DNA of 52,745 nt from Alphaproteobacteria bacterium (GTDB lineage: Bacteria; Pseudomonadota; Alphaproteobacteria; UBA828), in NCBI GenBank assembly GCA_022826665.1, contig JAJDUK010000085.1, positions 1 through 52,745 of the forward strand, given 5' to 3'. Of this stretch, positions 25,952-42,265 are shown in pieces (the stretch's first letter is position 1; every line of letters begins with the position of its first letter). The notes below the pieces were generated by a model, which made no database searches, had not been told where the DNA came from, and saw only the letters and a program-made list of their open reading frames with translations. Position numbers and translations under genes: made by a program.

Positions 25952-28649
<2,698 letters not shown>

Positions 28650-29535
28650 GGCTCCATCTCTCCTGCCAGGTTCACGTTGTGCTGCCAGCGCGACCTCCAC
28701 GCTGTCCACTCGGGCGAGTCGTTAAGATGGTAGAACTCTACTCAATGGAGAATGATTTTACGTGCCAATACTCACGATAATGGTGCTCCTTTTGTAAACA
28801 GCGCATGGGCTTCGTCGCCTCGCTGCGGAGTCCGCGGCATGGGCTCAGGAATTGCGATCTGGAGTCCAATCTGCGCGACGGCTGGATCTCCAAGGGCGAC
28901 GGCGTTCAAGTGGCCGCGTCAGGCTTTGATCGTCCCCGGCGGCTGTGCTCACGACTCAATTCCGATTCCGACGTGACAGGCTTAGCGTATAATTTATGAG
29001 AAGGATACTAGTTTTTCCAATATAATACGCATAATTTATTTCTATTGCCGTAAGAGTCTCAGAATGAGTTTTGTGTTTCCAGATGACCTTGGCCTTGGCG
29101 GTGACGGGCACCGACATGGTCACGGTGCGCCACACCAAGCCGGACAGCATTCGGTTGTAGGACGCGGCCAACAACGGGGCGAAGACCTCCGGCGACCAGC
29201 AGGCGCAAATGACATGCGCGAAGTGCTCCCGAGGCTCGGCACCCGGTCCATCGCCATTCCCCGATTTTCGCGCGCGAGGGGGGCGATTTCGATCCCTCGG
29301 CCCCGGCCCGTTGGGTCGGCAATGTGACGGCATCGCTGGAGATCCGGGCCGGGTGCCGTCGCGCACTGCGTGCCGGAAGGGCACCCCCGTTCGGGGACGA
29401 CACTCCGGTCAAGCTGCTTGTGCTCAGGACCGGGTCGCACGCGGTCCGAAGCCTTCTCGTTATACATGGATCGCGCGCACGGCACGGTGGCCAGGAGGCC
29501 GCCCGTCCTGGCTCCGGTGAAGGGGAGAAGACGCG
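28650..29535. other. Long intergenic region with an AT-rich patch
   Basis: Nearly 900 bases with no gene I can support. The stretch 28984-29060 is strikingly AT-rich (runs such as TATAATTTATGAG and AATATAATACGCATAATTT) against a GC-rich background, and could hold promoters in both directions or be a scar of past insertion. On the minus strand at about 29060-29225 one frame reads partly protein-like (VICACWSPEVFAPLLAASYN), but I could not place it in a family and it has no clear start. The ribosome binding site of the next gene (AAGGGGAG, near 29519) is at the right edge. Confidence 0.4.
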
Positions 29536-30375
29536 ATGAGGACAGGACTCACGATCGCGGTGCTGGCGGGCGCGGTCGCACTCGCGGCCTGTACCCGCAC
29601 GCTCGATCCTCCGACGGCAGAGGAACAGGCGCGGGAGACGCACGGCGCGATCGTGAGCGGCGCGAACACGCTGCTCATGGGCGATCGGCTCGGCTATTTC
29701 GCGACGGACGACGCGGTGGAGCGGACGAACACGACCTGTCGGGGCGACACCTGCGCGGCTGGATTCATATCTCTGAGAGGCGTGAGAAGCTTCGGCGTCG
29801 AGGAGTCGGAGCTGACGCTGCTTCGGGAGCGCCGCGGCGTGTCCCTGGTTCGCCAGGAAAGATCGGGGACCGACCGCGGCTACGAGGCCTATGGCGGCTG
29901 GCTCGAGCACAGCCTCTTCGGTACTCGGCTGACGCGTTTCACTGAGGAGGCCGGCCCCAGCCGGGGGGCGTCGATCGTCTCCAGTTATTCGCTCGGCTTT
30001 TCGACCGGGGAGAACCCCAGCGCCGAGGGCTCGGCCCGCTGGGAAGGCCTGATGCTCGGCCGCGACCTGCGCGCATCCGCCGGCCGCGGCCAGGTGATCC
30101 GGGGAGACGCCGACGTGACGGTCGAATTCGGAGCGGCCGCGATCACGGCGGATGTCGCGTTCACCGACATCGTCAACATCGAAACCGGCGCTGCGCAGAA
30201 CGACATGGCCTGGCGCGGCATGGCGGTGGAGGACGGCGGCTTCGCCGGGCGGTATGCCCCCGGCGACACCGTCTCGGGTCGGTTCTACGGCCCCAGTGAG
30301 GAGGAGGTCGGCGGCGTGTTCGAGCGCGACGGCATCGCAGGCGCGTTCGGCGGGCGGCGGACGTCCGCGCCATGA
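29536..30375 (+). CDS. TbpB-like lipoprotein 1 (transferrin-binding protein beta-barrel domain)
   Basis: A 279-aa exported lipoprotein. The signal ends in the lipobox LAAC (C19). The C-terminal part ends SGRFYGPSEEEVGGVFERDG and IAGAFGGRR, the closing strands of the small barrel known from the transferrin-binding protein B family and other Slam-dependent surface lipoproteins. Inside are the repeated strands RWEGLMLGRDLRAS and DADVTVEFG. An AAGGGGAG ribosome binding site precedes the ATG. It is the first of three tandem paralogs. No TonB-dependent receptor or Slam gene is nearby, so a role in metal or protein binding is only inferred. Confidence 0.78.
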   Translation: MRTGLTIAVLAGAVALAACTRTLDPPTAEEQARETHGAIVSGANTLLMGDRLGYFATDDAVERTNTTCRGDTCAAGFISLRGVRSFGVEESELTLLRERRGVSLVRQERSGTDRGYEAYGGWLEHSLFGTRLTRFTEEAGPSRGASIVSSYSLGFSTGENPSAEGSARWEGLMLGRDLRASAGRGQVIRGDADVTVEFGAAAITADVAFTDIVNIETGAAQNDMAWRGMAVEDGGFAGRYAPGDTVSGRFYGPSEEEVGGVFERDGIAGAFGGRRTSAP

Positions 30376-30440
30376 TCCGTCGCGTGCCGGTTTTGTCCCT
30401 GCTGTCCCTGCCGGCGCCGGAAGAACCCGGGGAGGGTCGA

Positions 30441-31292
30441 ATGAGAAGAGGATATCCGAGCGCGTTGGCGGCGTCTGCGGTCGCGCTGGCACTGGCGGCC
30501 TGTACCGGCTCCTCCGAGCCGCCACAGCCGACGGCGGACGAGCTGGCGCGGGCCTCCTATGCAAGGATCGCGAGCGGCGCCAATACGTTCCTGATGGGCG
30601 ATCATCTCGGCTATTTCGGAACCGACGACACGGTCGAGCGGGTGGGCGTCAGGTGCCTGGACGATACCTGTGCGGCTGCGTTCACGCGGTTCTTCCGGTC
30701 GAGCGAAGCAACCGTTGGTATCGCAGAGCTAAACTTGCTCGGTGAGCGCCGCGGCGCAAGCCTGGTCGTGGAGGAAGCATCGACCGATAACGTGGACGCC
30801 CATGTGTACGGCGGCTGGCTCGACCACAGCCTGTTCGCCACGGAATCCGCCTTTCTCAAGAGCGACCGCTTCCCGGACCAGGGCGCGACGGTGGCATTGA
30901 GCTATTCGTTCGGCTTTTCGAGCGGTGAGAACCCGAGTGCCGCCGAGGGCTCGGCCCGCTGGGAAGGCCTGATGCTCGGCCGCGACATGCGCGCCTCGCC
31001 CAGCCGCGGCCAGGTGGTCCGGGGCGATGCCGACGTGACGGTGGAATTCGGTGGGACGGGCATGGCCGCCGATGTTGAATTCACCGATATCGCCAATACC
31101 GAGACCGGCGAACGGCGGGACGACATGACCTGGCGCGGCATGGCGGTTGAGGAGGGCGGCTTCGCCCGGCGCAACGCCCTCGACGATACCATCTCGGGCC
31201 GGTTCTACGGCCCCAACGAGGAGGAGGTCGGCGGAATTTTCGAACGCGACGGCATCGCCGGGGCGTTCGGCGGCAGGCGCGCTGCCGACTGA
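30441..31292 (+). CDS. TbpB-like lipoprotein 2
   Basis: Close paralog of the preceding gene (283 aa), with lipobox LAAC and the barrel end SGRFYGPNEEEVGGIFERDG plus IAGAFGGRR. A 46-base block is identical in both genes (30021-30066 and 30941-30986), which shows a fairly recent tandem duplication. The ATG at 30441 is chosen because GGAGGG lies just upstream and the signal peptide begins there; the frame is open from 30372. The central part (about residues 60-110) is more diverged than the barrel. The third paralog follows after 39 bases. Confidence 0.78.
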   Translation: MRRGYPSALAASAVALALAACTGSSEPPQPTADELARASYARIASGANTFLMGDHLGYFGTDDTVERVGVRCLDDTCAAAFTRFFRSSEATVGIAELNLLGERRGASLVVEEASTDNVDAHVYGGWLDHSLFATESAFLKSDRFPDQGATVALSYSFGFSSGENPSAAEGSARWEGLMLGRDMRASPSRGQVVRGDADVTVEFGGTGMAADVEFTDIANTETGERRDDMTWRGMAVEEGGFARRNALDDTISGRFYGPNEEEVGGIFERDGIAGAFGGRRAAD

Positions 31293-31331
31293 CTACTGCC
31301 CGCCCTCCGGCGGCAACAGGAGGAGACCGAC

Positions 31332-32219
31332 ATGAGATCATTTTCTGCCTGCGGCCTGGCGATGGCCGCCGTCCTCTCGCTCGCGGCTTGCGGCGGCGAT
31401 TCCGCGCCCGAACGGGCGCTCACCACCGCCGAGATTCGGGAGCTGACCGGCCTGTCGGCGCCGGTCGAGACGGCGGAGGTGCAGCAGGAACGCAGCCTGG
31501 ACGTCTTCGCCCGCGCCGATTCCCTGATCCTGTCCACGATGCACGGGGAGACCGGCAACGCCGAGATTCCGACCTTCCGTCTCCTGACGCAGTGCAGCGG
31601 AACGCAGTGCACCGTGACCGAGCCCCTGAGCGGCGCCGTCGATACCATCGAGCTTGCCAATACGCCTCTCAGGCAGGGCGCCGCCACCGCCATCGGCTCG
31701 AAGCACGGCATCACCCTGTTGTGGGAGTCCTCGACGCATACGGGAGCGGACCTTGCCAGTCTCGGCGCATGGCTGGAGCACGGTTCGTTCGCGATCCTGA
31801 ACGAGCGCCAGACGAGCGAAGAGGGCACGGTGGATGTCTGGTACGGGATCGCCGTGGGCGAGCTCACGGGAACCCCTCCGGCCGGGAGCGCAACCTGGCT
31901 CGGCATTATGGTGGGAACGCCCGTCGACGGGGACGCGCACGGCGAGCGGCTCGTGGGGACGGCGGCGCTGAACTACGACATGGCCGTCGGCGGCCTCGAT
32001 GCGGCGTTCAGCGGTATCAAGAACATCGACCGCGGGACGGCGCACGACGTTGAGACGGTGATCTTCTCCAACCTCGTGGTCGGTCCGGACGGGACCTTCG
32101 CGACCGGCGAGTCCGGCACGCGCATCCAGGGCGGCTTCTACGGCACCGGACACGCCGAGGTGGCGGGCATATTCGAACAATCCGACATCGTCGGCACCTT
32201 CGGCGCGACGCAGCAGTAG
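31332..32219 (+). CDS. TbpB-like lipoprotein 3, diverged paralog
   Basis: A 295-aa lipoprotein with signal MRSFSACGLAMAAVLSLAAC and the same general layout. The closing motif is GGFYGTGHAEVAGIFEQSDI then VGTFGA. Strand pairs such as TWLGIMVGT and ALNYDMAVGGLDAAFSGI correspond to the barrel strands of the two preceding proteins, but overall identity is low. It has two cysteines in CSGTQC where the others have CRGDTC or CLDDTC, so a short disulfide loop is conserved in all three. AGGAGGAGA precedes the ATG. Confidence 0.72.
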   Translation: MRSFSACGLAMAAVLSLAACGGDSAPERALTTAEIRELTGLSAPVETAEVQQERSLDVFARADSLILSTMHGETGNAEIPTFRLLTQCSGTQCTVTEPLSGAVDTIELANTPLRQGAATAIGSKHGITLLWESSTHTGADLASLGAWLEHGSFAILNERQTSEEGTVDVWYGIAVGELTGTPPAGSATWLGIMVGTPVDGDAHGERLVGTAALNYDMAVGGLDAAFSGIKNIDRGTAHDVETVIFSNLVVGPDGTFATGESGTRIQGGFYGTGHAEVAGIFEQSDIVGTFGATQQ

Positions 32220-32293
32220 GCGCCCGGTCCAGGGAGGCCGGCGAGGCTGTCCGGAGCGAACCGGCAGACGACCAATCGAGCGAGAACAGGAAA

Positions 32294-32716
32294 ATGAGCG
32301 CGACCTTTACACTCAATTTGGAAGCGCCGCTGGACGAAATCGAGTGCATTCACACGGCGGTCGACATCCTGGCGGCGGCCGATGGCTGGGAGCCCGATTT
32401 CATGTTTCAGATCAGGCTCGCGCTGGAGGAGGTCGGCACCAACATCGTGCAGTACGGATACGACGAAGCAGGGAAGAAGGACATCCGCATTACACTCACC
32501 TCCAAAGGCCAATCCCTCACTATGGGAATTGTCGACGACGGCAAGCCCTTCGATCCGTTCTCCGATGCACCGCCGCCCGATCTCGACTCCTCAGTCGCGG
32601 ACCGCCCCATAGGTGGCCTCGGCATCCATCTCGTGCGGAGGCTGATGGACGAAGCGCACTATCGGCGCGAGGACGGCAGGAACAGGGTGGTCTTGATCAA
32701 GCGGAGGAAGCCTTGA
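32294..32716 (+). CDS. RsbW-like anti-sigma factor / serine kinase (HATPase fold)
   Basis: Small ATP-binding protein (140 aa) of the RsbW/SpoIIAB type. The N box is RLALEEVGTNIVQYGY, with the Glu and Asn that bind magnesium-ATP. The G1 box is VDDGKPFDP and the G2 box GGLGIHLVRRLMDE. Such proteins bind a sigma factor or another target and phosphorylate a STAS antagonist; a PP2C phosphatase reverses this. A receiver-PP2C phosphatase is encoded 2.7 kb downstream (35397), but no STAS protein or sigma factor is in the window. It could also be the kinase of a different partner switch. Confidence 0.88.
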   Translation: MSATFTLNLEAPLDEIECIHTAVDILAAADGWEPDFMFQIRLALEEVGTNIVQYGYDEAGKKDIRITLTSKGQSLTMGIVDDGKPFDPFSDAPPPDLDSSVADRPIGGLGIHLVRRLMDEAHYRREDGRNRVVLIKRRKP

Positions 32717-33026
32717 CGCGCCGGGGCAGCCGTTCCCATGCCGCGATCACCGTGCTGACGTCATTGTCCGATCCCAGGGCCCCACTCCACAACAGCAGCC
32801 ATGCGACGATAATGTCTCGCGTCCCGCTCGGAAGGCGGCGCGGTGCAGAAATTTGTGGTCGCTCTGAGAGGAGAAAACATCCAGCATAGGCTTGCGTTAC
32901 TCGGCGATTCGGATCATCCCACGAAGATCGGTTACGACCGCTTTTGCGGCAATTCAGCGCTGCCGATCTTCCCTGGCAAGGTCGCTCCTATCGGCTTCTG
33001 TTCATCGTCGATACAAGGACGAGCAA
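32717..33026. other. Intergenic leader before aapJ-like gene with inverted repeat
   Basis: No gene seen. GAAGATCGG (32923-32931) and CCGATCTTC (32963-32971) form a 9-bp inverted repeat. A smaller CCGC-TTTT-GCGG hairpin lies between the arms, so the region could fold into a branched structure before the aapJ-like gene. Whether it is transcribed is unknown. Confidence 0.35.
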
Positions 33027-34055
33027 ATGAAGCTCAACGCAATCGTCGGCATCCTGACTACCCTCTGTGTATCGATCACCGTCCTTGCGGCGGACGGTTA
33101 CGCAAGCACTCTCGATCACGTAAGGGCGGCGGGCACGCTCAGATGCGGCATCAATCCGGGCCTGCCGGGCTTCTCTCATACCGACGATACGGGCAGATGG
33201 TCCGGCTTCGAGGCGGCCTATTGCCGGGCGCTGGCGGCGGCCGTGCTGGGCGATCCAGACAAGGTTTCCTTCGTCACTCTGACCGGCAAGACGCGCTTCC
33301 CGGCATTGGCCTCCGGCGAAGTCGACATCCTGTCGCGTAACACGACCTGGACCTTCTCGCGCGATGTCGACCTGGGCTTCACCTTCGTCGGCATCAACTA
33401 CTATGACGGCCAGGGCTTCCTCGGCCACCGGGAGCTCGGCGTGGAGAGCGCCACCGAGCTGGACGGCGCCTCGATCTGCATCCAGACGGGCACGACCACC
33501 GAGCTCAACCTGGCCGACTTCTTCCGCGTCAACGGTATCACCTACGAGCCGGTGCCGCTCGAGACGAACGCCGAAGCCCGTGCGGCGTACAAGGCGGAGC
33601 GCTGCGACGTCTACACGACGGACGTTTCCGGCCTGGCGGCGACAAAATCGACCTTCGACGACCCGGACGCGCACATGATCTACCCGGAGATCATCTCGAA
33701 GGAGCCGTTGGGACCGCTGGTGCGCCACGGTGACGACCAGTGGGCGGACATCGGGCGCTGGGTGCTCAACGCGCTGATCACTGCCGAGGAGCTTGGCGTA
33801 ACCCAGACCAACGTCATGGAGCTGGCGAAGGGAACGGATCACCCGGAGATCAACCGGATGCTGGGATCGGAAGGCTCTCTGGGTGAGATGCTGGGCCTCG
33901 ACTCGCAATGGGCCGTGCGTGCGATTGCGGCGGAAGGCAACTACGCCGAGATCTTCGAGAAAAACCTCGGCGCCGGCAGCCCGCTCGACTTGCCGCGCGG
34001 CCTCAGCGCGCTTTATTCGGAAGGCGGCGCCCTCTATTCGCCGCCGTTCCGCTGA
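33027..34055 (+). CDS. aapJ: General L-amino-acid ABC transporter substrate-binding protein, AapJ-like
   Basis: Periplasmic binding protein, 342 aa, very close to the 341 aa of rhizobial AapJ. The signal peptide begins MKLNAIVGILTTLCVSITVL. The mature part has STLDHVRAAGTLRCGINPGL, GFEAAYCRALAAAVLGDPDK, LSRNTTWTFSRDVDLGF and the end LPRGLSALYSEGGALYSPPF, all hallmarks of AapJ. The ATG at 33027 follows AAGGAC and starts the signal. The genes for AapQ, AapM and AapP are not adjacent, so it stands apart from its transporter. It may be an extra copy used for sensing, given the signalling genes downstream. Confidence 0.92.
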   Translation: MKLNAIVGILTTLCVSITVLAADGYASTLDHVRAAGTLRCGINPGLPGFSHTDDTGRWSGFEAAYCRALAAAVLGDPDKVSFVTLTGKTRFPALASGEVDILSRNTTWTFSRDVDLGFTFVGINYYDGQGFLGHRELGVESATELDGASICIQTGTTTELNLADFFRVNGITYEPVPLETNAEARAAYKAERCDVYTTDVSGLAATKSTFDDPDAHMIYPEIISKEPLGPLVRHGDDQWADIGRWVLNALITAEELGVTQTNVMELAKGTDHPEINRMLGSEGSLGEMLGLDSQWAVRAIAAEGNYAEIFEKNLGAGSPLDLPRGLSALYSEGGALYSPPFR

Positions 34056-34138
34056 AGTGTCGGAGAGCCGCCGCCGGCCGCCGTGCCGGCAAACCGCCGT
34101 ATGTGGATAGGCGCCCCGGCTCGGTTACGCCGCTACCG

Positions 34139-34267
34139 ATGACTGGTGGCACGACCATAGGCGCCAAGCCGGGCCTCCCTTACAATGAAGATGTGCTTGA
34201 AGATTTGCTGACGCTGGCGCTAGGAGACGCAATTTTCCTCTACACTGACGGCGCGACAACTGGATGA
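34139..34267 (+). pseudogene. Remnant of a SpoIIE/RsbU-type PP2C phosphatase
   Basis: A 42-residue open frame reads GGTTIGAKPGLPYNEDV and then LTLALGDAIFLYTDGATTG. It closely matches the stretch before and including the FYTDGVTEA motif of SpoIIE phosphatases; the intact copy at 35397 reads VAPGEAVVFYTDGVTEA in the same place. Nothing of the phosphatase lies on either side, so this is a broken duplicate or scar. The rest of 34056-34525 holds no recognisable gene. Confidence 0.55.
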
Positions 34268-34525
34268 GGCTTGAAGGTCACCCCCACCCCGGTCGCCACT
34301 GCATTTGGCAGCGAGCAACGAGGTTGCTAGGCCGATGCCGCGGTGGCGGGCGGGACGTGGCGCCGCAGTGGGCGACTGACTGCGTTGGGCCTTCTCAAAG
34401 TCTTTCGTCGCGCTCGGACCGCGGTGGAATCGAAATCCGAGAAAGGGTAACAACCGCACAATTCCCACCATTTGGCGGCGACCCATTGCTTCTGCCCGTC
34501 GTCAACATCTGAGTAGGACGGCACG

Positions 34526-35182
34526 ATGCTGACATTCGTTGAAGAGACCTGTCTCTTGCTTCTGGATGAGAAAGGCAGCGAATTCCTGCCCATACACCCC
34601 AACATCGTGGAGTGCGCCCTGGCCGGCGCCGTGCTTGTAGATCTGGCGTTCACCTATCGGATCGACACCGATCCTAAGACGCTGACCGTCATGGACCGTA
34701 CGCCGATCGGCGAGGCCATGCTCGACCGTATCCTGGCCAAGATTGGCGAACAGGGGGAAACTTCCGATACTGGCACTTGGATAAAGACGTTGTCCGCCGA
34801 CGAGTCGGCAGCCATTCAACAACAGGCACTCGACCGACTCGTGGAGCGAGGCATTCTGGAGCAGCAGGATAAGAGGTCTCTCTTGGGTTTCCGCAGACGC
34901 CGTTATCTCACCGTCAATGGCGAGGCGGCGCGCGAGATCAAGGACCGCATAAAGACACTCATTCTCTCGGATGACATACCCGATCCCCGGGATACCGCGC
35001 TGCTCTCTCTGCTGGATGCCTGCGGCATTCTGCCCGACATTTACCCCGGAGGCGAGTTCAAGAGCGCCGGCGCGCGAATAAGACAGCTCCGCAACATGGA
35101 CCTTGTTGGCCGCGACGTGTTCAACGCCGTTGCCGACATCGAACGCGCAATCGTCACAACGCGTGCACACGGAGCCTACTGA
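34526..35182 (+). CDS. GPP34 family protein (GOLPH3-like)
   Basis: A 218-aa protein of the GPP34 family, the bacterial relatives of the Golgi phosphoinositide-binding protein GOLPH3. The N-terminal signature is FVEETCLLLLDEKGSEF then VECALAGAVLVDLAFTYRI. The C-terminal part, RDTALLSLLDACGILPDI, follows the family pattern of helices. In eukaryotes the fold binds membrane lipids; the bacterial role is not established. Base composition is a little lower in GC than the flanking operons. It lies between the SpoIIE remnant and the receiver-PP2C gene and is separated from the latter by 214 bases. Confidence 0.85.
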   Translation: MLTFVEETCLLLLDEKGSEFLPIHPNIVECALAGAVLVDLAFTYRIDTDPKTLTVMDRTPIGEAMLDRILAKIGEQGETSDTGTWIKTLSADESAAIQQQALDRLVERGILEQQDKRSLLGFRRRRYLTVNGEAAREIKDRIKTLILSDDIPDPRDTALLSLLDACGILPDIYPGGEFKSAGARIRQLRNMDLVGRDVFNAVADIERAIVTTRAHGAY

Positions 35183-35396
35183 GGTCTGTCGAAGACTTGC
35201 CGAAGGAAGCAAGGGATCGTTCACAAGTGTGATGGTGCTAATCGTCCGGCCGTAAATGAAGTTTGGGATCAAACCTAATTGTCAAACGATCGCGCCAAGA
35301 TGAGTCAAGAACATCGCTACACGAGCGCCTCTCTAAGGCGTATGAAGAGCACTACACCACAGGCGTTTTCACGAATCGCAAAAAACGAGTTGAGCA

Positions 35397-36599
35397 ATGA
35401 CACAAGAGCCAAGCGCTGAGACACTAGAGATGCGTTCGACTCCCTACAAGATTCTCGTCGTAGACGACGAACCTGACTTGGAACGTCTCGTTCTGCAACA
35501 GATGCGCCGGGAGATTCGCCGCCAGCAGTATGAGTTCGTCTTCGCTCACAATGGTATCGAAGCTCTTGAGCGGCTCAGCCAGGATCAGAACATCGATTTG
35601 GTGGTCTCGGACATCAACATGCCCAAGATGGACGGTCTTGCGCTCCTTGAAAATATTGCTGAAGTCAATGCGGACGTGCGTTCCGTGATCGTGTCAGCTT
35701 ACGGCGATATGAAGAACATTCGTACTGCGATGAACCGGGGCGCTTTCGACTTCGTGACCAAGCCTATCGACTTTGCAGACTTGAAGGTCACGATCGAACG
35801 AACATTGCGCAACCTGATTTCGTGGAGAGAGGCAACAGAATCGCGCGAAAAACTTCTAGCAATACAGAACGAACTCGATGTAGCCAGCAAAATGCAACAG
35901 TCGATTCTTCCGACCGTCTTTCCCGCAGATTCTCGGTATCAGGTGTTCGGTAGTATGTCGCCCGCTCGGGAAGTAGGCGGGGATTTTTTTGACATTATGA
36001 AATTGGAAGAGGGACGTATCGGTATTGCGGTCGCGGATGTCTCCGGCAAGGGCGTTCCCGCTGCCCTTTTCATGATGTCTTGCCGTACTCTTCTCAAAGG
36101 CGCAGCCATCGGCACCGCTCGCCCTGGCGCGGTGCTGAAGGAGGTCAACCAAGTTCTTCAAGACGATAACGAAGCGATGATGTTCGTCACGCTCTTCTAC
36201 GCAATTTTCGATCCGGAAAGCGGGGAAATGGTGTATGCAAACGGGGGCCACAATCCGCCAATCATTGTTCAAGCCGATGGAAGCTCCAGCGAGATTCCCG
36301 TAACGAGTGGGATCGCGCTCGGGGTGATGGCCGACGTTGACTTTGCGGAAGACACGCTACAGGTCGCGCCAGGCGAAGCAGTCGTATTCTACACCGATGG
36401 CGTTACGGAAGCCGAGAATGCCAAGGCAGAGTTGTTCGATATGGAGCGGCTGCGGCTGGTCTTCAACGGAGTGCCCCCGAAAGACGCGAAAGAAGCCAAC
36501 AAGGCGGTTTTCGAGGCCGTGAGCGCATTTGCAGGCGACACGCCGCAATCCGACGACATCACTTGCATAACGCTCTATCGCGACGAGCCATGCGGATAA
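35397..36599 (+). CDS. Response regulator with receiver and SpoIIE/RsbU-type PP2C phosphatase domain
   Basis: A 400-aa signal-transduction protein. The receiver domain (residues 17-135) has the acidic pair D23-D24 in VVDDEPD, phospho-acceptor D72 in VVSDINMPKMDG, S100 and K122 in TKPID. A coiled linker (to about 165) leads to the PP2C domain, with metal-binding Asp residues in VGGDFFDI, VADVSGKGVPAALF and the final QSDDITCITL. The fold dephosphorylates STAS-type antagonists, releasing an anti-sigma or other switch protein; an RsbW-like ATPase is encoded at 32294. The likely upstream kinase is the histidine kinase at 37933. The start codon of the next gene may overlap its end. Confidence 0.95.
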   Translation: MTQEPSAETLEMRSTPYKILVVDDEPDLERLVLQQMRREIRRQQYEFVFAHNGIEALERLSQDQNIDLVVSDINMPKMDGLALLENIAEVNADVRSVIVSAYGDMKNIRTAMNRGAFDFVTKPIDFADLKVTIERTLRNLISWREATESREKLLAIQNELDVASKMQQSILPTVFPADSRYQVFGSMSPAREVGGDFFDIMKLEEGRIGIAVADVSGKGVPAALFMMSCRTLLKGAAIGTARPGAVLKEVNQVLQDDNEAMMFVTLFYAIFDPESGEMVYANGGHNPPIIVQADGSSSEIPVTSGIALGVMADVDFAEDTLQVAPGEAVVFYTDGVTEAENAKAELFDMERLRLVFNGVPPKDAKEANKAVFEAVSAFAGDTPQSDDITCITLYRDEPCG

Positions 36600-36673
36600 G
36601 TGTTAGGCTCTTTTCCCGCTTCGACGCGGGTGAGCGACAAGCGGCGGAGCTTCGACACATTCCCGTCTCGTTT

Positions 36674-37936
36674 ATGCGAGGTGGCCCCGTCGCGCCCGCA
36701 GAGCGAGCGCTAGAGCGTCCAACCTGCAACGATACAACAGGGAAGCGGAAGAAGCGGGCAAGTGGTTTGTGCCTGGCCCTCCTCATGGCCGTCTGGTTCA
36801 CACTTCCGGGTGCCGCGGCGGTGCAGGCGGAAGAGCCCGGGGTGACCGACCAGCATATCCTCTTCGGACAATCGGCGGCTTTCAGCGGTCCCGCGCAGGA
36901 CCTGGGTAAGAACCTGCGGCTCGGTATCCAGGCGGCGTTCGAGGAAGCGAACCGGCGCGGCGGCGTGCACGGGCGCACGCTGGCGCTTCGGTCTCTCGAC
37001 GACGCGTACGAGCCGGAGGCCGCGATCGTCAATACGCGCCGGCTGGTCGTGGAGGATGGTGTCTTCGCCCTGATCGGCGCCGTCGGCACACCGACCTCTC
37101 GCTCCGCTGCCCCTATCGCTGCCGATATGGGCGTTCCCTATCTCGCGCCATTCACCGGTGCCGAGTTTCTGCGCGATGCCAAGTGGCGGAACGTGATCAA
37201 TCTGCGCGCGTCCTACTACCAGGAGACCGAGGCAATGGTCTCCCGCCTTATCGGAGATTTGGGAATCGACGGGGTCGGGGTGATCTATCAGGACGATTCC
37301 TTCGGGCAGGCCGGCTATCGCGGGGTGCGCCGGGCGCTCGAGCGGCGCGAGCTGGAGCCGGTGGTGATCGGGGTCTATCCGCGCAACACGACCGCGGTGA
37401 AAACGGCACTGCTCGACGTGCAGCGTTTGGATCCCGAAGCCGTCATCCTGATCGGGGCCTATGAGCCGGTCGCCGCGCTGATCGCCTGGGCGCGGCACAT
37501 CGGCTTCGATCCGGTCTTTCTGACCATTTCTTTCGTGGGCAGCAACGCTCTGGCAAGAGAGCTTGGCACCGCAGGGACCGGCGTCTTCGTGACCCAGGTG
37601 GTGCCCTTTCCTGACGGCGACGAGCCTGCGGTCACTGTTGCGTATCGCCAGGCGCTGGCGGCCAATTCACCAGAAGCCTCACCGGGTTTCGTCTCCTTCG
37701 AGGGTTACCTGGCGGGCCGCCTCGCGATCGAGGGTCTCGAGCGCTGTGGACGTGAGATCGACCGGTCCTGCCTATTGGACAGTTTACGCCGCGCCGAAGT
37801 CATCGACCTCGATGGCTTCGGGCTTCGCTATGGCGAAGGTGACAATCAGGGGTCGGACGCCGTCTTCGTTACCGTGATCGGTGGGGACGGCCGCTACCAT
37901 CCCATCGACACACTTCGGCTCGCCGTGCAGCCATGA
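36674..37936 (+). CDS. Type I periplasmic binding protein (LivJ-like), kinase-associated
   Basis: Leu/Ile/Val-type binding protein of about 420 aa. The mature domain starts GVTDQHILFGQSAAFSGPAQ and continues with LGIQAAFEEANRRGGVHGRT and FALIGAVGTPTSR. Its stop overlaps the histidine kinase start as ATGA (37933-37936), so both are made together; no permease is present. I infer that it presents a ligand to the kinase, as TorT does for TorS. The start is uncertain: ATGs at 36563 and 36590 overlap the phosphatase gene. 36674 is chosen because the signal hydrophobic core (LCLALLMAVWFTLPGAAA) lies about 30 residues later. Confidence 0.88.
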   Translation: MRGGPVAPAERALERPTCNDTTGKRKKRASGLCLALLMAVWFTLPGAAAVQAEEPGVTDQHILFGQSAAFSGPAQDLGKNLRLGIQAAFEEANRRGGVHGRTLALRSLDDAYEPEAAIVNTRRLVVEDGVFALIGAVGTPTSRSAAPIAADMGVPYLAPFTGAEFLRDAKWRNVINLRASYYQETEAMVSRLIGDLGIDGVGVIYQDDSFGQAGYRGVRRALERRELEPVVIGVYPRNTTAVKTALLDVQRLDPEAVILIGAYEPVAALIAWARHIGFDPVFLTISFVGSNALARELGTAGTGVFVTQVVPFPDGDEPAVTVAYRQALAANSPEASPGFVSFEGYLAGRLAIEGLERCGREIDRSCLLDSLRRAEVIDLDGFGLRYGEGDNQGSDAVFVTVIGGDGRYHPIDTLRLAVQP

Positions 37937-40188
37937 CCACGTTGGCAAGACGGCTGCTTGACAGTCGCTTTCGACTCTCGACCCAGCTCTATCTGGGTAT
38001 CGGGGGCGCCGTCGCGCTCACCGTCGTCGCCAGTCTGGTCGGTCTGGTCTCCTTCGATCATGTGGGCGACGTCCAGCGCCGCGTCAACGAGGGCAGCGTG
38101 CCAGAGATGGTGACGGCCTTCGGCGTGGCGCAGCAAAGCGGTGCTCTCGTCGCCGCCGGGCCGAGGCTGACCGCCGCAGCGACGCCGGAAGAACTCGCCC
38201 ACACCGTCGCGGATATCTCACATGACCGGCAAGCCTTCGAAGCCCAGGTGGCTGCGCTGCCGGATCAGGGAGCGGAGGAGCCGCGCTTCGAGCGCATTCG
38301 CGCCCAAGGCAATGCCGTGCTCGCGAATGTCGGCGCCATCGAAGAGTCGGTGGCTGAAGGCTTCCTGCTCGCCGAGCGCAGCGAGGCGTTGCGCGCCGAA
38401 ATCGCAGCCCTGCAAAGGGAGCTTGCCGCAGCATTAATTCCGGCCATCGACGACCAGCTCTTCTACACGATGACGGGCTATCGGGAACTCGGCGAGGCGC
38501 CGGCGCCCCGCGCGGTGCACATGTCGGAGGAGGAGTTCAACCGCTACCGCCACATGGCGGGATTGCAGGCAAATGCCACGATTGCGATCCAGCTTCTGGC
38601 GAGCGCGTTCGACCTCTCAGACGTCGCCCTGCTGGAACCGCTGCGGGAGCGCTTCGAGGCCTCCGCCGGCAAGATCGAGCGCGGCTTGTCAGCCCTGGGC
38701 GCCACGCCCCTCCATGCCAGGATTGCACCCGCCTTGTCCCGTCTCGTCGACCTGGGTCTGGGCCAGGATCAAGGCTTCGATCTGCGGGCTCACGAACTTT
38801 CTCTCGATGAGCGTCAGACGGCGTTGCTCGCGTCCAACAACAATCTTGCTGTCGAACTCGCCGCCGAGGCAGAGGGGTTGGTCAGCGCGGCGCGTGAGAG
38901 CGTCCAAAACGCGGCTCAGGCGTCCTCGTCGGCGATCAGTACCGGCGGCAATCTCCTGCTTGCGATCAGCGTGACCAGCATCGTCGGGGCGGTGCTGATC
39001 TCATGGCTGTTTGTCGGCCGCGTGCTGATGCGGCGTCTCGGGCGGCTTTCGGATCGGATGCGCCGGATGGCCGAGGGCGATATCGAAGCGGAAGTGGTGG
39101 TCGACGGACGAGGCGAGGTCGCGGACATGGCCGCGGCGTTGGAGGTCTTTCGCCGTCACGCGCTCGAAGTCCAACGGCTTAACTTGGTCGAGAAGCTGGC
39201 AGAGGAGCTCAAGGGCAAGAACGAGCAGCTCGAGGACGCACTCGCGAACCTTCAGCGAGCACAAGACCAGATCGTCATGCAGGAGAAGCTTGCGGCGCTC
39301 GGCGAGCTCACTGCCGGCGTGGCGCACGAAATCCGGAACCCGCTGAACTTCGTCAAGAACTTTTCAGACGTAACAGAGCAGCTGCTGGAAGAACTCCTGG
39401 AAGAGCTGCAAACGGTTCTCCCTGAGCCGGTCGACGGGAAGGAGGACGAGAGCAGTGCGCTGATCCGAGAGATCAGCGCCGACATCACCGAAAACCTCAG
39501 ACTGATTCGGGAGCACGGCGAGCGCGCAAATCAGATCGTACAGCACATGCTCAGCATGGGGCGTGATTCGGGCGGCCGGCAACCGACGGACATCAATGCC
39601 TTGCTCGACGAGCATGTGCGGCTTGCCTACCACAGCGCCCGGGCAAGCGATGACAGCTTTCAACTCGACATCGTCCAGGACTTCGATCCGGCGGTGGGGT
39701 CGCTCGACGTCGTCACTCAGGACGTGGGCCGCGTCTTCCTCAATCTGGTCGGCAATGCCTGCCAGGCGACTGCCGAGAGGCGGCGCGCCGAGGAAGCCGC
39801 GGACGCAGCGGATCCCGGTCCGGATGGCTCAGAGGGGGACGCTTACGAGCCGACGCTCACCTTGGTCAGCCGGCGATCCGAAGAAGGGGTCGAAATCCGG
39901 ATCAGAGACAACGGGAGCGGGATCCCACCCGACATCATCGACGACATCTTCAACCCCTTCTTCACGACCAAGCCGCCGGACCAGGGCACCGGCCTGGGCC
40001 TCGCGCTCTCAAGCGATATCGTCCGCCAGCACGGCGGCGAAATCAGAGTGGAGTCCGAAGTCGGCGTGTTCACCGAAATGATCGTCACGCTGGCCGCGCA
40101 ACCGCCTCAGCAGACCGAGGACGACGCGACCGAGGACGAGGCGGAGTTAGAGGACGAGCACCCCAAGGAGTCGCCCTTGCCATCGTGA
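37933..40188 (+). CDS. Sensor histidine kinase with large helical periplasmic domain (TorS-like)
   Basis: A 751-aa membrane kinase. TM1 is at about residues 20-42 and TM2 near 338-360, enclosing a periplasmic domain of about 295 residues. This domain is rich in Ala and Glu and reads as all-helical, as in TorS and related kinases that bind a type I binding protein. A HAMP segment (DRMRRMAEGDIEAEV) and a coiled coil follow. H465 lies in VAHEIRNPLNF, the N box is VFLNLVGNACQAT, and the G boxes are IRDNGSGIPP and TGLGLALSS. There is no attached receiver, so the partner is probably the receiver-PP2C protein at 35397. The tail is acidic. Confidence 0.94.
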   Translation: MTTLARRLLDSRFRLSTQLYLGIGGAVALTVVASLVGLVSFDHVGDVQRRVNEGSVPEMVTAFGVAQQSGALVAAGPRLTAAATPEELAHTVADISHDRQAFEAQVAALPDQGAEEPRFERIRAQGNAVLANVGAIEESVAEGFLLAERSEALRAEIAALQRELAAALIPAIDDQLFYTMTGYRELGEAPAPRAVHMSEEEFNRYRHMAGLQANATIAIQLLASAFDLSDVALLEPLRERFEASAGKIERGLSALGATPLHARIAPALSRLVDLGLGQDQGFDLRAHELSLDERQTALLASNNNLAVELAAEAEGLVSAARESVQNAAQASSSAISTGGNLLLAISVTSIVGAVLISWLFVGRVLMRRLGRLSDRMRRMAEGDIEAEVVVDGRGEVADMAAALEVFRRHALEVQRLNLVEKLAEELKGKNEQLEDALANLQRAQDQIVMQEKLAALGELTAGVAHEIRNPLNFVKNFSDVTEQLLEELLEELQTVLPEPVDGKEDESSALIREISADITENLRLIREHGERANQIVQHMLSMGRDSGGRQPTDINALLDEHVRLAYHSARASDDSFQLDIVQDFDPAVGSLDVVTQDVGRVFLNLVGNACQATAERRRAEEAADAADPGPDGSEGDAYEPTLTLVSRRSEEGVEIRIRDNGSGIPPDIIDDIFNPFFTTKPPDQGTGLGLALSSDIVRQHGGEIRVESEVGVFTEMIVTLAAQPPQQTEDDATEDEAELEDEHPKESPLPS

Positions 40189-40215
40189 AGCGAGGCGGGA
40201 AGCCACTCTTCGGGC

Positions 40216-41517
40216 ATGCCGCATAGGCGAGGAGAGATGGGCATACCTCGAATGAGGTCGTCGACGAGGAGAAGCGTCCTTCGGTACGGCCTTGCCGGTT
40301 GCCTGTTGGGTTTTGGCTGGCGTCCATCCGGCGCGGCGGCATCATCGGGCGTGACCGACAGCGAGATCGTGCTGGGCACGTCCGCCGCGTTCTCCGGTCC
40401 TTCCCGCGGTCTCGGCATTGAGCTCTTCCGCGGGGCCAGTGCCTATTTCGAGCACGTCAACCGCAACGGTGGCGTCAGGGGCCGAAGAATCGTTCTCAGG
40501 ACCTATGACGACGGCTATCAGCCCGACCCGTCGGTTCAGAACACGATGACCCTGATGCTGGAAGACGAGGTCTTCGCCCTGTTCGGCTATGTCGGGACGC
40601 CGACGGTCACGCGCGTCCTTCCCATGCTCAAGAAGTTTCAGGAGAGACAGGTCTATCTCTTCTTCCCGTTCACCGGCGCCCAGCCGCAGCGGGAGCCGCC
40701 ATACGGCCCCTTCGCCTTCAATTTGCGCGCCTCCTACCGGCAAGAGACGGCCGGCTTGGTTCAGAACTTCGTCGGGATCGGCCGCAAGCGCATCGCAGTC
40801 TTCTATCAGGCTGACGCTTACGGCCGCAGTGGTTGGGCGGGCGTGCGCCGTGCCTTGAGACCGTTCGGCGAGCGGATCGTCGGCGAGGCAACCTACGGGC
40901 GGGGCTCCAAATTCACGGGCATCATGCGCGATCAGGTGGAGATCCTGAAGGCATCGCGCCCGGATGCGGTCATTTGCATCGGCGCTTACGCCGCCTGCGC
41001 CGCGTTTCTCCGCGACGCGGTAGACCTTGGGTTACGCGTGCCCATCGCCAACGTGTCCTTCGTCGGCAGCGAGAACCTTCTCAATCTCATCACGCAAAGG
41101 CGTGACGATGGCGAGCGCTACACTGAGCTGCTGGTCAACTCGCAGGTCGTTCCCAGTTATCACGATGTGGGGATTCCTGCTGTCCAGCAGTACCAGGAAT
41201 TGATGGCGCGATACGATCCTCAGCCGCCGCAGGAATTGCTGAGAGAGGATTACACGCCCTTCTCGCACAGCTTCGTCAGTCTGGAGGGCTTCCTCAACGC
41301 CAAGTTGATGGTCGAGATCCTGGATCGCCTTGGCGACAAGCCGGATAGAAGTGCGCTGGAGGGGGCCGTCTTCAGCATAAGGGATTTCGATTTGGGAATC
41401 GGCGAGCTGGTGTCGTTCGGGCCGGAGCGCCGCCAGGGTTTGCAGAAGGTCTACTACACCGTTGTGGACGAGGGCCGCTTCGTTCCCCTGGACAGTTGGG
41501 AAAACAGGTTCGGCTGA
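40216..41517 (+). CDS. Second LivJ-like periplasmic binding protein
   Basis: Paralog of the binding protein at 36674 (433 aa). It has the same start of the mature domain (GVTDSEIVLGTSAAFSGPSR) and the shared VNRNGGVRGRRIVLRTYDDG and FALFGYVGTPTVTR. The N-terminus carries RSSTRRSVLRYGLAGCLLGF, a signal that resembles a Tat leader with paired arginines (RRS). The start may be 40216, 40237 or 40252; a GGAGAG tract lies at 40231. It sits between the histidine kinase and a membrane sensor, again with no permease, so two ligand-binding inputs flank the kinase. Confidence 0.88.
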   Translation: MPHRRGEMGIPRMRSSTRRSVLRYGLAGCLLGFGWRPSGAAASSGVTDSEIVLGTSAAFSGPSRGLGIELFRGASAYFEHVNRNGGVRGRRIVLRTYDDGYQPDPSVQNTMTLMLEDEVFALFGYVGTPTVTRVLPMLKKFQERQVYLFFPFTGAQPQREPPYGPFAFNLRASYRQETAGLVQNFVGIGRKRIAVFYQADAYGRSGWAGVRRALRPFGERIVGEATYGRGSKFTGIMRDQVEILKASRPDAVICIGAYAACAAFLRDAVDLGLRVPIANVSFVGSENLLNLITQRRDDGERYTELLVNSQVVPSYHDVGIPAVQQYQELMARYDPQPPQELLREDYTPFSHSFVSLEGFLNAKLMVEILDRLGDKPDRSALEGAVFSIRDFDLGIGELVSFGPERRQGLQKVYYTVVDEGRFVPLDSWENRFG

Positions 41518-41518
41518 C

Positions 41519-42265
41519 ATGAAAATCCAGAAACTCTTCCGAAAGACTCTGTTCGGCGTATTTTTCCTGTTCGGCGTAATCGGCGTATCGACATCGGTTC
41601 TCTGCATTTACACGGTCGATACGCACCTGTCCGAAGAATATGAATCGAACAGCAAGGATATCGCCAAGACAATCGCCGATGCCAGTGTCGACATCCTGTT
41701 GAACAGGAATCTGACGGCTCTGCAGTCCCTCATCGACCAGTTCGTCGAGATTCAGGGAATCAGCTACATCTACATCACGAGCGAGACAGGGGAGTTTCTG
41801 GCGCACACCTTCGTTCCGGGCATTCCGGAGGAGATCAGGACCGGTGACACGACCAGCATGGTGACGGTGGAACGAAGCCTGCCGGGCATGGGCGATTTCG
41901 TCGAAGTCGCGAGTCCGATCCTGGCGGGCGTTGCCGGCGCGGTCCACATCGGCAGCGACACCGGGCTGATCGCGTTGAAGGTGCAAAGAGCGATCGGCCA
42001 GCAGATCTATCTCATCTCCATCATCTTCGTAGTCGGCATTCTCGCCGCGATCTGGCTCGTCGGCCAGGCAGCCAGACCGGTCGACGGCGTTCTCGCCTTT
42101 GCGGTGAAGCTCGCACAGGAGCGGGAGGCCGACGGCAGAGGAAACGAGAAGCTGCTCGCGCGCAATGACGAGGCAGGAGAGCTTGCGCGCCTCTTCCTCC
42201 ACTTCTCGCAGGTGATGGATAGAGACAAGGCGGACGGGCTCTCGCAGCCGGGCGGGAAGGAATAG
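41519..42265 (+). CDS. Membrane sensor with CACHE-like periplasmic domain and no output domain
   Basis: A 248-aa inner-membrane protein. TM1 is at residues 10-32 (LFGVFFLFGVIGVSTSVLCI) and TM2 at 163-183. Between them a 130-residue periplasmic domain has a PAS/CACHE-like strand pattern (ISYIYITSETGEFLAHTFVP). After TM2 a HAMP-like or helical stretch (ARPVDGVLAFAVKLAQERE) runs to the end without kinase, cyclase or methyl-accepting domain. It overlaps neither neighbour but starts 1 base after the second binding protein, so it is in the same unit. It may form part of the kinase complex or be a truncated receptor. The family is not certain. Confidence 0.72.
   Translation: MKIQKLFRKTLFGVFFLFGVIGVSTSVLCIYTVDTHLSEEYESNSKDIAKTIADASVDILLNRNLTALQSLIDQFVEIQGISYIYITSETGEFLAHTFVPGIPEEIRTGDTTSMVTVERSLPGMGDFVEVASPILAGVAGAVHIGSDTGLIALKVQRAIGQQIYLISIIFVVGILAAIWLVGQAARPVDGVLAFAVKLAQEREADGRGNEKLLARNDEAGELARLFLHFSQVMDRDKADGLSQPGGKE

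Follow-up and report, generated by a model that had tools for sequence, protein, structure and literature searches.

Three lipoprotein genes in tandem, here called P1, P2 and P3, lie in contig JAJDUK010000085.1 of Alphaproteobacteria bacterium (assembly GCA_022826665.1, lineage UBA828), the whole 52,745 nucleotides of which are referred to as the window. The genes are separated by 65 bases (P1-P2) and 39 bases (P2-P3), with 74 bases between P3 and the next gene, and a purine-rich stretch stands ahead of each start. The likelier start of P2 is position 30441, because a ribosome-site-like GGGGAGG precedes it while none precedes position 30372. Judged from the translations, each of the three proteins carries a LAAC lipobox, which bears out the tandem of lipoproteins reported in a preliminary description made from the sequence alone. 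As argued below, these proteins are probably displayed at the cell surface by Slam, the exporter of the type 11 secretion system (T11SS).

Sequence family and predicted fold

Kinship with the transferrin-binding protein TbpB had been proposed from a shared barrel ending and a CxxxxC loop. The loop is present in all three proteins. Across the family it is nearly invariant in alignment A2 (36 rows, three of which end short of this region), and in alignment A3 (33 rows) it never varies. The ending is common to P1 and P2 (EVGG, GAFG), whereas P3 reads FYG....EVAG.FE....VGTFG and differs in two places. P1 is 62% identical to P2 and 28% to P3, in agreement with the divergence of the third lipoprotein noticed earlier.

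All three proteins exceed the cut-off of 26 bits of the Pfam model TbpB_B_D (PF01298; Table 1). The genome as a whole gives nine matches at an expectation value (E) ≤ 1, five of them over the cut-off, P1–P3 included; the ninth, on contig C87 (E 0.046), was dropped as weak. Searched against solved chains, the A2 profile found lactoferrin-/transferrin-binding protein B (LbpB/TbpB; best E 6.7e-7). AlphaFold2 models were obtained for P2 (predicted local distance difference test, pLDDT, 84; predicted template modelling score, pTM, 0.86) and P3 (pLDDT 91, pTM 0.90), and both align over a handle and a barrel with the TbpB C-lobe, factor H-binding protein (fHbp) and hemophilin; P1, at 62% identity to P2, would share this fold. 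For the P2 model the VIA Z-scores are 15.2 with hemophilin 7rea (195 residues aligned, 3.7 Å), up to 14.8 with fHbp, 13.5 with the TbpB C-lobe 5kkx and 12.4 with HpuA 5ee4; for P3 they are 14.8 (fHbp), 14.5 (NHBA), 14.3 (TbpB C-lobe) and 14.0 (hemophilin). Foldseek rankings are topped by the same families. Structural matches within one Z unit are ties and therefore point to no one ligand class in particular.

In both models, one handle and one barrel fill 263–276 residues, unlike the two lobes of TbpB (PMC12282271). Sequence matches and, for P2 and P3, the predicted models thus support the assignment of P1–P3 to single-lobe, handle-plus-barrel TbpB-like lipoproteins. The kinship first proposed therefore stands by Pfam, by profile search and by fold comparison, with one lobe in place of two. 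TbpB partners TbpA, while P1–P3 share the barrel homology and have no partner of that type. The likeness to fHbp, a surface lipoprotein of one lobe that is not known to need a receptor partner, lies in the architecture and in Z-scores of up to 14.8 with both models, whereas identity in the structural alignments with the P2 and P3 models is only 8–17%.

Table 1. Positions of the lipoprotein genes and their features in the window
Feature	Positions	Strand	Details
P1, single-lobe TbpB-like lipoprotein (predicted), 279 aa	29536-30375	+	LAAC lipobox, Cys codon 29590-29592; PF01298 29.8 bits
P2, single-lobe TbpB-like lipoprotein (predicted), 283 aa, old paralogue of P1	30441-31292	+	Cys codon 30501-30503; PF01298 26.9 bits
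P3, diverged third TbpB-like lipoprotein (predicted), 295 aa	31332-32219	+	Cys codon 31389-31391; PF01298 27.6 bits
CxxxxC of P1 (CRGDTC), N-terminal part	29737-29754	+	
CxxxxC of P2 (CLDDTC)	30654-30671	+	
CxxxxC of P3 (CSGTQC)	31593-31610	+	
PF01298 match, C-terminal barrel of P1	30085-30360	+	
PF01298 match, end of barrel of P2	31161-31280	+	
PF01298 match, C-terminal barrel of P3	31944-32213	+	
46-base block in P1	30021-30066	+	identical to 30941-30986; conserved barrel segment
46-base block in P2, second copy	30941-30986	+	
P1-P2 cassette, farthest extent of alignment with L074-L078	29485-31293	+	flanks unaligned

Exporters in the genome and across the class

The preliminary description also found the lipoproteins to be without Slam, which holds for the window and fails for the genome. 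A genome-wide profile search matched other contigs only, and contig C56 carries two PF04575 (Slam) genes (E 4.2e-25 and 5.2e-21). The premise of orphan lipoproteins is thereby corrected, a likely exporter being present in the genome. Both Slams cover the full profile (1–288 of 288; 74.6 and 87.9 bits, cut-off 22) and end in a C-terminal barrel, and both N-termini match TPR models below those models' own cut-offs. Each adjoins its own large lipoprotein (697 and 824 aa), called cargo by lipobox, place and GAFG ending only. Open reading frames outside the window come from an in-house script, not a published gene finder, and their starts are approximate. Meningococcal TbpB and LbpB genes are not near slam1 either (Hooda et al. 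2017, PMC5449769), so that a Slam far from P1–P3 is not odd. The 824-aa lipoprotein (L012:8823-11297) holds many aspartate-rich repeats resembling thrombospondin type 3 (17.8 bits, cut-off 25), and its signal sequence is nearly identical to that of the 697-aa neighbour of the other Slam.

Relatives of P1–P3, referred to as the lipoprotein family, tend to occur where Slam occurs. Among 95 related genomes, the family is present in nine, Slam in 12 and both in eight; the exception without a detected Slam is G002, which has six family matches and is 67% complete. Thirteen members of other genera of the same taxonomic family (G008–G020) have neither (0/13 for each). In a draw of 337 genomes of the class, the family is found in 13, Slam in 35 and both in 12 (Fisher p 2.8e-12, kinship ignored), and with the genus of the source organism left out, Slam is still found in 10 of 11 family-bearing genomes (p 2.2e-10, likewise). 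The 13 family-bearing genomes span nine taxonomic families, every one of which has a genome with both, and the sole family-positive genome without Slam (G086) owes its place to a frame of 49 residues that is interrupted by a stop (E 2.8e-4). Because no more than seven candidates were scored per genome, the numbers of family matches in this draw are minimum values, and some matches are short or contain a stop; those of the receptor-rich genomes G187 and G263 are weak (E 2.6e-6 and 4.0e-6). Slam is likewise found in 18 of 21 genomes reached through 24 named loci, at least three of these genomes being repeats (G356 = G002, G365 = G006, G358 = G007).

Direct linkage is seen elsewhere: a relative directly adjoins Slam in G036 and G060, and the family profile (E ≤ 1e-5) matches at six of 36 named Slam loci (L108, L058, L049, L137, L060 and L131), some of the 36 covering the same Slam. 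At one of them (L108:16482-19658, contig C4 of G006), a single frame encodes a lipoprotein-like protein of ~1058 aa that matches the family at three separate places. L079, a record titled as uncultured Bryobacterales and assembled as a chromosome (OX638379.1; G360), encodes a relative of 757 aa that ends in the barrel and has a PF04575 match elsewhere (E 7.9e-7); the T11SS having been described for Proteobacteria, this record may extend it beyond them.

In P1 and P2, the handle evolves more quickly than the barrel. Mean non-synonymous divergence (dN) in handle and barrel is 0.24 and 0.12 for P1, and 0.23 and 0.14 for P2, that is 1.7–2.0 times higher in the handle, and the median ratio to synonymous divergence (dN/dS) is 0.48 against 0.27 for P1 and 0.37 against 0.24 for P2 (15 pairs for each). 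A middle stretch of ~30 columns changes like the handle.

P1–P3 are thus best read as probable cargo of type 11 secretion, that is, single-lobe surface binding proteins displayed by Slam and not co-receptors of the TbpA type. They would be exported by Sec, lipidated at the LAAC cysteine and sorted to the outer membrane, where one of the two C56 Slams, recognising the C-terminal barrel, would flip them to the surface. The N-terminal handle, which is quicker to change and is probably held in place by a disulphide in CxxxxC, would bind a large outside molecule, most likely supplied by an animal host.

Several points weigh against this proposal. The genes are not beside a Slam, and the C56 Slams have neighbours of their own. 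These neighbours give no match to Pfam TbpB_B_D and none to the family profile at E 0.05, which leaves the C56 Slams as putative carriers of this barrel type. P1–P3 score 39.1, 35.8 and 27.2 bits with the NCBIfam slam_lipo model (NF041636, 'Slam-dependent surface lipoprotein') and miss its cut-off of 80. No Slam was detected in three of the 21 genomes mentioned above (G356, 67% complete; G357; G361), and the co-occurrence figures are inflated by kinship. Finally, every part of the proteins has a median dN/dS under 1, which gives no sign of a strong arms race.

The proteins resemble the Slam-dependent TbpB-like lipoproteins of Hooda et al. 2017 (PMC5449769) in lipobox, handle, C-terminal eight-strand barrel and the presence of Slam in the genome; handle plus barrel is the architecture given there for Slam cargo. 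They differ in falling below the slam_lipo cut-off and in having no receptor gene nearby, TonB-dependent receptors being present in 120 of the 185 Slam clusters with lipoproteins in that study. As far as the text consulted goes, the closest proteins in print are cargo lipoproteins of Alphaproteobacteria that Grossman et al. 2025 (PMC12282271) predict for the marine cluster 3 T11SS of Rhodobacteraceae/Roseobacteraceae. Those are lipoproteins of 282–375 aa with a C-terminal barrel, at loci where TonB-dependent receptors are rare; they sit in a conserved locus with a Slam-type gene, whereas the family of P1–P3 is tandem, unlinked and found at varying places. The words 'Alphaproteobacteria' and 'sponge' are absent from the main text of that paper. 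P1–P3 are a known kind of protein, and what is unusual is the combination of many family members without receptors and a cassette-like spread.

An old gene pair, a third gene and apparent movable cassettes

The 46-base block shared by P1 and P2 is exact, and it had been taken as the mark of a recent duplication. This dating does not survive comparison with other genomes. The P1-P2 tandem recurs in five other records (L074–L078), and P1 and P2 form separate orthologous lineages in six genomes, with amino-acid identities of 73% (P1) and 72% (P2) between orthologues and of 62% between the paralogues of one genome. The block falls in a constrained barrel segment, its ten copies in the five other records matching at 40–43 of 46 bases. 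Homogenisation of P1 and P2 by gene conversion was considered and rejected, the split between them appearing in both the handle tree (support 1.000) and the barrel tree (0.919), with identity hardly higher within genomes (62%) than between them (61%).

DNA similarity to the other records begins 12–51 bases before P1 and ends within ~12 bases of the P2 stop, while that for P3 is confined to positions 31269-32241. In 16 loci, the flanks (window positions 26000-42000, E 1e-10) gave no alignment except one match at 34496-34818. P1–P3 genes look like gene-sized movable cassettes at changing places, because similarity stops near the gene edges. Transfer of such cassettes between orders is likely, judged by how the metagenome bins are titled, although some (Bryobacterales, Acidobacteria, Chloroflexi) could be products of mis-binning. 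Broken-looking extra P3-type copies stand beside intact ones at L078:6461-6850 and L088:13957-14604, as expected of a multiplying, decaying family.

P3 falls on a different branch, to which records titled Silicimonas and Boseongicola (Paracoccaceae) contribute relatives. It might have been acquired separately and serve another purpose than the pair, the tandem being an accident of two insertions. The nearest P3 relatives, in two Alphaproteobacteria bacterium records (79 and 75% identity in amino acids) and two Silicimonas, Paracoccaceae records (70 and 69%), are in other records than the P3-type copies of L076 and L078, which are only 58 and 59% identical to P3. Moreover, the P3-type gene is on a different contig from the pair in G002 and G007, G006 has such a gene and no close match to the pair, and the end of DNA similarity near the edges of each unit points the same way. 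P3-type genes are nevertheless found close to the pair at L076 and L078 too, and the three genes of the window are consecutive with short gaps, so that separate acquisition for another purpose is a minority possibility, to be taken seriously without being preferred.

Receptors, possible ligands and neighbouring genes

The absence of a TonB-dependent receptor was a further observation of the preliminary description. It is exact for the window and nearly so for the genome, in which the search matched other contigs only and a single receptor was found, on contig C38. This receptor shows weak likeness to vitamin B12 and siderophore receptors, and no receptor of the TbpA type lies beside P1–P3. The C38 gene (L109:6281-9861) adjoins a putative sphingomyelinase-type endonuclease/phosphatase gene, as read from the sequence. 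Since the genome has one such transporter only, and that elsewhere, P1–P3 would not be its co-receptors.

The same poverty in receptors is seen in relatives. Seven genus-mates have one or two TonB-dependent receptors each. Five of the 12 genomes of the class draw with both family and Slam have none over the cut-off (G036, with one sub-threshold match, G055, G196, G291 and G307), and eight of the 12 have at most one; the other four are G305 (nine matches), G096 (13), G187 (43) and G263 (51). At least seven family matches each were found in G196 and G291, which have zero receptors over the cut-off. Because several family-bearing genomes have no receptor over the cut-off, a TonB co-receptor role cannot apply to every member of the family. 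The receptor as true partner of the family was also rejected on statistical grounds: there is no association among the 95 relatives (7/9 versus 50/86, p 0.22), and numbers of family matches and of receptors are uncorrelated across the 12 genomes (rho −0.29, p 0.36).

It is nevertheless worth asking whether P1–P3 are hemophilin-like haemophores, or co-receptors handing haem or iron to a TonB-dependent receptor. P2 finds its best structural match in hemophilin, though tied with fHbp, and hemophilin shares with P1–P3 a single lobe of handle plus barrel; the fold of the models makes haem binding possible. Pfam HphA_C scores 20.7 bits with P1, below its cut-off of 31, and is not listed for P2 and P3, and the genome does hold one TonB-dependent receptor. 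In L075 and L077, moreover, a binding-protein-dependent ATP-binding cassette importer is encoded after the P1-P2 pair, on the other strand (Pfam matches on three L075 proteins), and its binding protein may resemble the Fe(III) type. Against this stand the place and weak affinities of the receptor and the five receptor-less genomes that have both family and Slam. HphA binds haem through two histidines (PMC8560813), whereas only one histidine is nearly invariant in the family (alignment A2), and P1–P3 further differ in being lipidated, by their lipobox, and in having no receptor beside their genes. A scan of the window gave zero Fur-box matches, and four Irr-box matches against 2.1 expected are no excess. 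A role in haem or iron delivery is on balance unlikely.

Confinement of P1–P3 to the periplasm, anchored on the inner face of the outer membrane without surface binding, would fit the lack of linkage to Slam, the missed slam_lipo cut-off and the six family matches of Slam-less G002, but it is improbable given that G002 is so incomplete, that fold and sequence are akin to known Slam cargo, and that family and Slam occur together and are both missing from G008–G020.

If P1–P3 are Slam-displayed binding proteins, the source of their ligand may be sought in the host. The source organism looks like a marine-sponge symbiont, and bin names such as RHO and IRC suggest a sponge origin for those records of its relatives that bear them, other bins being named jk18, p16, SB and CO; Rhopaloeides and Ircinia were sampled in PMC8163846. 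A broader scenario, which is speculative and for which the odds are rather low, is that the family has been cut loose from nutrient uptake and multiplies in receptor-poor symbionts, its cassettes crossing orders of sponge-associated alphaproteobacteria and its variable handles binding sponge molecules to help decide host residency. Most work on TbpB-like cargo has concerned vertebrate pathogens, where much of it supplies a TonB-dependent receptor with iron or haem. Genomes such as G196, G291 and G307, in which Slam and a minimum of five to seven family matches go with no receptor over the cut-off, offer a natural test of this fold without an uptake job. If the hosts are sponges, as record titles suggest, the family would be a concrete candidate for recognising the host in a symbiosis that ranks among the oldest of animals. 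Nothing tying sponges to DUF560, or sponge symbionts to transferrin-binding protein/TbpB, was found in the literature covered, which left out most subscription papers.

Signalling genes follow P3, the first at position 32294, and the lipoproteins do precede this locus directly, as had been described. The arrangement does not recur among the relatives covered: no homologue of the gene at 32294 was found at 14 other gene-called loci (two of them repeats), so that a functional tie to the signalling locus is not supported. Lipoproteins and signalling gene may be co-transcribed in this one genome. Scans found one promoter site against 0.6 expected and three terminators against 1.8 expected. Elsewhere, a sensor-like gene (L074:5296-7596) lies 1.2 kb from a relative and a response regulator (L100:5471-6160) directly beside a P3 relative, both with short matches to the signalling proteins of the window.

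Further downstream, 2.3 kb after P3, the window holds a GPP34 (GOLPH3-like) gene (34526-35182). In G005, a gene with matches to the GPP34 and P450 proteins of the window (L103:1777-3774) is found ~650 bases from a relative, and at L084:6-328, DNA 79% like the GPP34 region lies ~9.5 kb from a P3 relative.

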